Shown: positions 52,101 through 59,317 of the stretch, piece after piece | Numbering within the stretch: the first letter of the stretch is position 1 | Layout of the letters: each line of letters begins with the position of its first letter | Assembly: GCF_004027225.2 (NCBI RefSeq) | Contig: NW_022651111.1 | Location: 1-64,000 of the forward strand | Source: Strigops habroptila | Taxonomy: Eukaryota > Chordata > Aves > Psittaciformes > Psittacidae | Direction: 5' to 3' | Length of the DNA: 64,000 nt | The notes under the pieces: generated by a model | Database searches by the model: none | The model's input: the letters and a program-made list of their open reading frames with translations, nothing else | Told to the model about the DNA's origin: nothing | Translations under genes and position numbers: made by a program

Positions 52101-55100
52101 TGAAGGGGACATAGAAGGACACAGAGGTCCATGTCCCCAAGGGTTCCCACTGTCCCAAGGGGCATGGGGACACCCGAGATCCATGTCCCCAAGAGGATAT
52201 GGAAGCACAGAAGGACATGGGGACATGGAAGGACACAGAGATCCATGTCCCCAGGAGGATATGGGAGCACAGAAGGACATGGGGACATGGAGGGACGCAG
52301 AGGCAATAGGAGGACATGGAGGATCTGGGGGTGAAGGGGGACATGGGAACACAGAGGGACATAGAAGGACATGGGGACACAGAAGGACATGGCAATATGG
52401 AGAGACATGGAGGGACACGGATAATATGGGGACATAGACATGGGGATATAGAGGGACATGGGACACAGAGGGAGGTGGGGACATGGAGGGATATAGGGAC
52501 ACAGAGGGACACGGAGGCAATAGATGGACGTGGAGGATCTGAGGATAGAAGGGGACATGGGGACACAGGGGGCATAGAAATACAAGGGGCTTATAGGGAC
52601 ACACAGGGACATGGAGGGACATGGTGGGTACCTGGACGTAGCTGGACATGGGGGTGTCCTCTCATGTCCCTGGGGTATCCCTGGGGTGTTCCTGGGGGGT
52701 GACAGCGTGACCCCATGTGTCCCTGGGGTGGGTGGCACTGGGTGCTGGGTGGGTGTCCCCAGGGCTGTCCCCATGACCTGGGGTGTCCCTGCAGTGTCCC
52801 TGGGGGGGGAAGGGAGGGTGTCCCCATTGAAGCAGGGGGTGTCCTCGGGGGTGTCCCCATGTCCCCATTGCAGTTTGGCCCCGGGGGGGGGTGTCCCCAT
52901 GGGGTGTCCCCAGGGGTGTCCCCGGGGCTGTTCCCATGTCCCCAGGGGGTGCCCCCACGCCCCCATCACAGCCCGGCCCTGGGGCGGGTGTCCCCATGGG
53001 GCGTCCCCATAGGGTAAGCCCAGGGGTGTCCCCTTGGGGTGTCCCCATGCCCCTATGGAGTGTCCCTAGAGGGCGTCCCCAGGGGGTGTCCCCATGTCCC
53101 CATTGCAGCCCATCCCCGAGGGGGGGTGTCCCCATGGGGTGTCCCTATGCCGCCATGGGGTGTCCTTGGGGTTGTTCCCATGTCCCCAAGGGGTGCCCCC
53201 ACGCCCCCATCACCCTGGGGTGGGTGTCCCCATGGAGTGTCCCCATGGGATGTCCCCAGGGGTGTCTCCATGGGGTCTCCCCATGCCCCTATGGGGTGTC
53301 CCTAGGGGGTGTCCCCAGGGGGTATCCCCATGTCCCCACGGGGTGTCCCCACACCCCCACCGCAGCCCGTCCCCGTGGGGGGGTGTTCCTAGGGGGTATC
53401 CCCATGTCCCCATGGGTTGTCCCCAAGCCCCCATCGCAGCCCGGCCCCGTGGGGGGGTATCCCCATGGGGTGTCCCCATGTCTCCATGGGGTGTCCCTAG
53501 GGGGTATCCCCATGTCCCCATGGGGTGTCCCTGGGGTTGTTCCCATGTCCCCACGGGGTGTCCCCACGCCCCCACCGCAGCCCATCCCTGTGGGGGGGGT
53601 ATCGCCATGGGGTGTCCCCATGCCCCTAGGGGGTGTCCCTAGGGGGTATCCCCATGTCCCCATGGGGTGTCCCTGGGGTTGTCCCCATGTCCCCATGGGG
53701 TGTCCCCACACCCCATCACAGCCCATCCCCGTGGGGGGGGATGTCCCCATGGAGTGTCCCCATGCCCCTCGGGGGTGTCCCTAGGGGGTATCCCCATGTC
53801 TCCATGGGGTGTCCCTGGGGTTGTCCCCATGCCCCTATGGGGTGTCCCCAGGGGGTGACCCCATGTCCCCACGGGGTGTCCCCACACCCCCATCGCAGCC
53901 CATCCCCGTTGGGGGGGTGTCCCCATGGAGTGTCCCCATGCCCCTCGGGGGTGTCCCTAGGGGGTATCCCCATGTCCCCATGGGGTGTCCCTGGGGTTGT
54001 CCCCACGGGGTGTCCCCACACCCCCATCGCAGCCCTGCCCCGGGGCGGGTGTCCCCGTGGCGCGTCCCCGGGGGTGCCCCCATGTCCCCGGGGGGAGGTC
54101 CCGGCGCGGCCGGGGTGCCCCCCCCGGGGGTGGCAGCATGACCCCGGTGAAGCCTGGCCCCGCAGGCTGATGCTGGTGGAGCAGGAGCTGCGCAGGGATC
54201 ACTTGGGCGCCCACGACCCAGCCGAGGGCCGGCGGCGGCTGCTCGACGCTCAGGTGGAAATTACAATGTCATTGCTCTGCTCCGTGTGACATCGGCCATC
54301 CCACGCCGCGCTGGGGCCGGGGCCGGGGGGGGGCACCCATGGGTGGGGGTGTTGGGGGTCTGTGGGCACCCATGGAGGTGGTATTGGGGGTCTATGGGCA
54401 CCCATGAGGGGGTTATTGGGTCCCTAAGAAGGAGCTGGGTACCCATGGTGGGGTTATGGGCATCCTTTGTTGGGGGCACCCATGGGTGGGGGTATGGGAA
54501 CCCGTGGGTTGGGGCATGGGCATCCTTTGTTGGGGGCACCCATGGGTGGGGGTATGGGAACCCGTGGGTACTGAGGGTGTATGGGCACCTATGGAGGTTG
54601 TATGGGCACCCATGGGGGGGTTATTGACATCCTTTGTTGGGGGCACCCATGGGTGGGGATATGGGCACCCCCATGGGTGGGGGGTATCGGAACACAGCAG
54701 TAGGGTATTGGGGGTCTATGGGCACCCATGGAGGGGTATTGGGGGTCTATGGGCACCCATGGAGGGGTATTGGGGGTCTATGGGTCCCTAAGAGGGAGCT
54801 GGGCATGTATAGTGTGGGTTATGGGCATCCTTTGTTGGGGGCACCCATGGGTGGGGGTATGGAAACCCATAGGTTGGGGGTATTGAGGGGTGTATGGGCA
54901 CCTATGGAGGTTGTATGGGCACCCATGGGGGGGTTATTGGCATCCTTTGTTTGGGGCACCTACGGGTGGGGGTATGGGCACCCGTGGGTTGGGGTATAGG
55001 CACCCATGGGTGGGGGTATGAGAACCCGTGGGTTGGGGTATGGGCACCCATGGAGGTGGTATTGGGGGGTCTATGGGCACCCATGGAGGTGGTATTGGGG

Positions 55101-59317: not shown

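Follow-up and report, generated by a model that had tools for sequence, protein, structure and literature searches.

In mammals, the C-terminal isoform of SYNGAP1 depends on which splice acceptor of exons 19 and 21 is used, and exon 21 can be read in two ways, as alpha1 or as alpha2 (PMC9064290). In the exon numbering of PMC7314543, alpha1 and alpha2 skip exon 19 and gamma includes it, ending with LLIR and a stop; among human cortex reads at the C-terminal junction, about 56% are alpha2, about 35% alpha1 and about 9% gamma. The rat alpha1 antigen comprises 20 residues without LLIR (PMC3742523), and a 15-residue SynGAP peptide likewise contains no LLIR (PMC9490041). Further reference letters come from peptides and primers. 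In rat, exon 18 ends with GCTCAG in a primer (PMC7314543), the alpha2 tail ends with QITENGEFRNTADH (PMC3742523), and the beta frame terminates as PPRHG and a stop within exon 18 (peptide and primer, PMC7314543). In mouse e19, the beta acceptor is shifted by 13 bp and reads AAG (PMC9064290), and the human last exon reads GAGAGGCAGCTTCC / GAGAGGCAGC in a cloning primer (PMC9698725).

Introns with a GT donor and a GG acceptor are rare, with 21 such junctions among about 151,000 in the table of a 2026 review (PMC13149111; the total was worked out from the printed percentage). In its passage on the subject, the same review describes a GG acceptor as potentially linked to SYNGAP1 events without giving the place, and refers for this link to papers in eLife (2022) and Neuron (2023). 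The GT-GG intron of BANP is widely conserved across vertebrates (PMC4176328).

The window analysed here is a stretch of 64,000 nucleotides from Strigops habroptila, and its gene is, judging from matches to DAB2P_C, RasGAP and the coiled coil, SYNGAP1, the bird orthologue. The genome gives at least 150 scored matches to the beta-keratin family, which fits a bird. RasGAP, DAB2P_C and the SynGAP coiled coil stand in the expected order within 43261-51143. The coiled coil matches PDB 5jxc (SynGAP) with an E value of 5.7e-39, and the QTRV tail (12 residues) matches PDB 5jxb at E 0.02. A DAB2P_C search of the whole genome (1,148,577,936 bases in 89 contigs) yielded 15 matches, confined to the contig of this locus (C83) and two others, C16 and C8, whose loci we take, from their tails, to be DAB2IP and RASAL2. 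Scans of genome contigs and viral contigs for stray vertebrate SYNGAP1 returned 141 and 25 stretches with the pattern, respectively, and no relatives. The features of the locus are as follows (a slash marks a splice junction).

43261-43473, RasGAP match.
47802-48623, 49305-49445 and 50928-51143, profile matches to DAB2P_C (PF12004).
50931-51142, forward strand, SYNGAP1 exon 17 (coiled coil; PF12004, PDB 5jxc), ending in phase 2 (AG of an R codon).
54153-54165, forward strand, candidate 13-base 5' extension of exon 18 after an early AAG acceptor, GGTGAAG/CCTGGCCCCGCAG/GCTG.
54166-54253, forward strand, exon 18, 88 nt, ending CTCGACGCTCAG (LLDAQ) in phase 0.
56636-56704, forward strand, predicted gamma exon, 69 nt, reading LSVR and the stop TAG at 56648-56650, with donor CAG/GTGGGT.
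56636-56646, forward strand, proposed microexon, the 11-mer CTGTCCGTCAG between AG and GT, with the weak internal donor CAG/GTAGCG.
59131-59310, forward strand, last exon in the alpha2 frame (ERQL...), from the AG acceptor, 59 codons, stop at 59308-59310.
59132-59173, forward strand, last exon in the alpha1 frame, with a putative start after the GG at 59130-59131, 13 residues to QTRV, stop at 59171-59173.
59159 and 59162, forward strand, inner AGs of the last exon (-0.8 and -2.3 bits), which would give LLDAQ/QTRV and LLDAQ/TRV, each followed by a stop.
59273-59317, forward strand, counterpart of the family ending, 14 residues, in the QTRV frame and not in the ERQL frame.

The alternative C-terminal endings already known from mammals are kept in the tail end of the bird gene, as far as its letters can tell. 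The whole is probably best read as a mammal-type SYNGAP1 C-terminal module, in which alpha1 and alpha2 would be chosen by a one-base AG/GG tandem acceptor and gamma would come from a 69-base exon. From the weak donor of exon 18, splicing to 56636-56704 would give LLDAQLSVR and a stop (gamma). With the gamma exon skipped, a join at 59131 after the AG would give ERQL... (alpha2), and a join at 59132 after the GG at 59130-59131 would give the QTRV tail (alpha1, the PSD-95 ligand). Since the starts at 59131 and 59132 give both tails, the choice between alpha1 and alpha2 would fall to a one-base tandem acceptor and not to an 11-base exon. We infer that these sites, the GG acceptor included, are used in bird RNA.

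Compared with the mammalian module (exons 18-20 or e19-e21), the bird locus has in common the end of exon 18, the phase of LLDAQ, the form of the gamma tail, the QTRV tail, the GAGAGGC start of the last exon and the 13-base AAG geometry of the early acceptor. The differences are that the gamma tail reads LSVR for LLIR, the residues of the alpha2 frame have drifted, the family ending is shifted out of frame by one base, CGA replaces the TGA of rat beta (aligned by hand) and the introns are mostly tandem repeat. The initial annotation had described a SYNGAP1 C-terminal switch region here, and its gamma-type tail, its PSD-95-ligand frame and the mammal-like layout are supported, while its 11-base selector is not. 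The proposed alpha1 acceptor of the bird resembles that of BANP in being a GG with a GT donor; however, it sits one base past a normal AG and would switch the frame, whereas the passage on BANP describes conservation and no such pair. The 11-mer is like neuronal microexons in its length of 11 bases, its frame-shifting effect and its place in a synaptic gene, but differs from them in its weak donor and in the 69-base exon with a better donor that starts from the same acceptor.

At the last exon, the intron ends with tgcccttacag and the exon starts with GAGAGGCAGCTT, so the AG/G pair is present (ttacag/G/AGAGGC), and the first 12 exon bases equal the letters of the human primer (PMC9698725). Exon 18 joined at 59132 reads LLDAQ plus the 13-residue QTRV tail, 18 residues in all with no extras, which is exactly the mammalian alpha1 junction; joined at 59131, it enters the ERQL frame. 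All 13 residues of the alpha1-frame tail are the same as in the rat alpha1 peptide. The acceptor at 59131 scores 5.7 bits, the strongest canonical direct acceptor, in the ERQL frame. The splice-site matrices behind this and all other scores are approximations, which give exons 17 and 18 just -2.4 and -4.0 for their real acceptors. The inner AGs at 59159 and 59162 stem from CAGCAG in the bird; the human primer has CAACAA at this place and thus neither AG. Entry to the QTRV frame through an AG ahead of the last exon was also considered and rejected: five AGs stand in that frame from 58830 on, three of which run into a stop, and the two open ones (59084 and 59111) score -10 and -21.

Mammalian alpha2 starts with ERQL, its first codon being GAG. 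Alpha1 then reads CAG/AGAGGC and alpha2 CAG/GAGAGG, only one base apart, so that two AG acceptors are impossible and the second would be GG. GG would thus be the alpha1 acceptor in mammals as well; this is our own reading, which takes the alpha2 start as given and begins its comparison of letters at GAGAGGC. If mammalian alpha2 were instead without the E, mammals could have AG/AG/AGGC; the bird would then not share their two acceptors, which would favour the microexon route.

The constrained frame of the last exon is that of QTRV. At the 38 alpha1-codon positions in print, a comparison that leaves out four middle letters absent from print, bird and human differ at six, each of them the third position of an alpha1 codon (P 3.3e-4 under random placement). 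By translation, none of the six differences changes a residue in the QTRV frame, and every one does so in the ERQL frame. One further difference between bird and human lies directly past the alpha1 stop.

The alpha2-type ending lies out of frame. The position 59317, at which the region had first been closed, is the stop of the 14-residue ending in the QTRV frame and does not belong to the ERQL frame, whose own stop is at 59308-59310; the family ending of the bird is displaced by one base from the ERQL frame. Taken with its proline-rich lead, this ending aligns to the rat alpha2 tail at a score of 38, which none of 5000 shuffles equalled, to the DAB2IP tail at 31 (equalled by 5 of 5000) and to the RASAL2 tail at 28 (27 of 5000). 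In the paralogues the family ending reads LQITENGEFRNSSNC and LSITENGEFKNSSC. Runs of G9, G12, G9 and C8 lie between the alpha1 stop region and the family ending (59171-59317), with the poly-G stretch at 59174-59240, which makes a run-length error of the assembly a fair explanation of the one-base offset; a true frameshift would be another. An intron within the last exon (GG/GTGTGA to CCAG/GGCG) that would restore the family ending to the ERQL frame was derived by hand and rejected; a homopolymer error or a true frameshift would account for the offset as well.

For gamma, the pair 56636-56704 is the sole one in the intron with an acceptor of at least 4 and a donor of at least 5 at a spacing of 20-250 nt. 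Its acceptor at 56636 scores 4.65 bits and ranks 7 among the 173 AGs of the intron. Within the 4877-nt intron, a single AG leads in phase into the pattern L-x-[LIV]-[RK]-stop; none of 1000 dinucleotide shuffles contains such a site, and none of the 120 and 335 AGs in the corresponding paralogue introns leads into one, so the LSVR site is not explained by chance. The start of this site, CTGTCCGTCAGGTAG, shares 10 of 15 letters with that of rat gamma, although the rat stop in the primer may have been chosen by the designer. The 11-mer is probably the start of this 69-base gamma exon, which we consider the better reading. If the 69-base exon is used, the stop of the product LLDAQLSVR would sit 54 bases upstream of the last junction. 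A distance of 54 bases is at the edge of that usual for nonsense-mediated decay.

Two more observations concern this intron. The stretch directly after the gamma donor (56705-56753) is rich in C patches, and it could be a binding stretch, given that HNRNPK knock-down increased gamma in human motor neurons (PMC9698725). The top donor of the intron, AAG/GTGAGT at 59005 (58996-59010; 8.4 bits), stands 125 bases before the last exon, with no evident exon ahead of it.

Exon 18 ends with LLDAQ in phase 0, as the initial annotation had it, by both coordinates and translation (54166-54253), and its last 18 nt are identical to the rat primer letters at 17 positions (PMC7314543). It has one donor, a weak one (GCTCAG/GTGGAA, 0.61 bits); the exon 17 donor, CAG/GTGAGG, scores 7.3 bits. 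The 36 bases that open the following intron (54254-54289) come seventh among its 4841 windows in AT content and lie outside the tandem arrays; read-through from exon 18 into them yields 16 residues, and they are possibly a kept splicing element. The beta tail had gone unmentioned, and its 13-base early-acceptor geometry exists here. The early AAG acceptor before 54153 scores poorly (-9.2 bits), and such triplets are not rare in the intron that holds it, where 1.2% of positions carry AAG and 7.6% carry AG; given these frequencies and this score, a single 13-base AAG match to the SynGAP-beta geometry is suggestive only. By translation, no beta-frame stop occurs inside exon 18 of the bird and the frame reads on, with CGA at the place of the rat stop TGA in an alignment by hand.

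The introns had also been called entirely minisatellite. They are mostly tandem repeat, but the share marked by TRF is 67.8% in this intron and 82.6% in the one before it, and not the whole of either. It is 65.8% in the window, and 0% in exon 17, in exon 18 and in the gamma exon of 69 bases. Beyond the coding end, in what is apparently the 3' untranslated region, tandem arrays of CCTCGTGCAAAGGGCTC-type units occupy 59588-60629.

Other routes to the QTRV frame have to be weighed against the tandem acceptor. According to the initial annotation, a single exon of 11 bases (56636-56646), set off by the internal donor of the gamma exon, would choose among three tails by the logic of mammals. The three tails do read as it described: exon 18 joined to 59131 gives the ERQL frame, passage through 56636-56646 gives the QTRV frame (a 22-residue reading from LLDAQ to QTRV, with extra residues between), and continuation past 56646 gives LSVR and a stop. 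Frame and stops thus work for the microexon, a GT stands directly after the 11-mer, CAGGTA is found at this point of the rat gamma start too (primer, PMC7314543), and the upstream AGs in the QTRV frame are poor, three of five meeting a stop and the open ones at 59084 and 59111 scoring -10 and -21. The internal donor CAG/GTAGCG, however, scores 0.79 bits and ranks 45 among 345 GT sites, against 6.0 bits and rank 2 for CAG/GTGGGT, a far stronger donor 58 bases on, and an exon of just 11 bases was not borne out. The weakness of its donor alone does not exclude such an exon, since that of exon 18 is no stronger (0.61 vs 0.79). The mammalian comparison weighs more heavily on the claim of a mammal-like selector: alpha1 has no LLIR in the peptides given in PMC3742523 and PMC9490041, both alphas skip the gamma exon, and in human cortex the gamma acceptor appears in about 9% of non-beta reads, against about 35% for alpha1 (PMC7314543). 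A UGC motif, moreover, is absent from the 60 nt upstream of the 56636 acceptor. The LLIR-free alpha1 of mammals and the weak donor led us to reject the 11-base exon as the main reading of the alpha1 selector, and as a way of supplying the QTRV frame we consider it unlikely.

Splicing might also enter the QTRV frame at the inner AGs at 59159 or 59162, from an intronic donor lying 14 or 32 bases past exon 18, or at an acceptor placed 20-47 bases ahead of the last exon. All of these routes are open, and the inner AGs outscore the acceptors that exons 17 and 18 really have. However, the inner AGs would drop RGSFPPWV, which is the same in bird and mammal, so that its conservation argues for the start at 59132, and the stronger AG at 59131 lies just upstream of them. 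The intron donors score only -3.1 and -2.8 and the upstream acceptors -10 and -21, and no mammalian counterpart appears in the passages of PMC7314543, PMC9064290 and the other sources cited; we regard any such entry as highly improbable. The QTRV frame could finally be a fossil, in a bird that no longer makes alpha1 and reads the ERQL frame only, the frame opened by 59131, which at 5.7 bits scores highest among the canonical direct acceptors. We give this hardly any credence, for the QTRV residues are identical to those of mammals with all six base differences silent, whereas the ERQL frame is changed at all six and, as assembled, misses the family ending; a fossil QTRV frame predicts the reverse pattern.

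In both paralogues, named DAB2IP and RASAL2 from their tails, the last exon starts after ag/GAG at the homologous junction, and the DAQ/E junction is the same as in SYNGAP1. The +1 frames of their tail exons run for exactly 13 codons and then stop (RNALLPWMLPTHG and RSGSCPWTLPTRG), and 13 codons is also the length of the QTRV frame of SYNGAP1. However, frame 0 of the paralogues retains ITENGEF, and their +1 frames end with T-H-G and T-R-G and offer no PDZ ligand. The PDZ ligand of SYNGAP1 looks like an overprinted frame. It is conceivable, though we are inclined to doubt it, that this frame won in the bird lineage: the AG/GG pair would have been kept since the ancestor of birds and mammals while alpha2 and beta decayed, and the derived frame would now be the conserved C-terminus. 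A zebrafish syngap1b form has 10 of 11 terminal residues in common with human alpha1 (PMC11266194), which indicates that the QTRV frame is old. None of the overprinting papers among the matches listed names SynGAP, and we do not claim that the literature lacks an account of the bird isoforms or of overprinting.

Loss of SYNGAP1 leads to epilepsy and impaired cognition, for which the alpha tails are important in mice (PMC9064290). New here are the asymmetry between silent and changed differences in the two frames, the out-of-frame alpha2-type ending, the beta geometry without its stop and the 13-codon frames of the paralogues. With introns that are largely repeat, the bird copy shows what the switch kept, namely the gamma acceptor, the weak donor of exon 18 and the AG/G start of the last exon. 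It further suggests that the PSD-95 ligand is an overprinted frame, with a length of 13 codons that DAB2IP and RASAL2 have as well, so that comparisons could test how the ligand arose.
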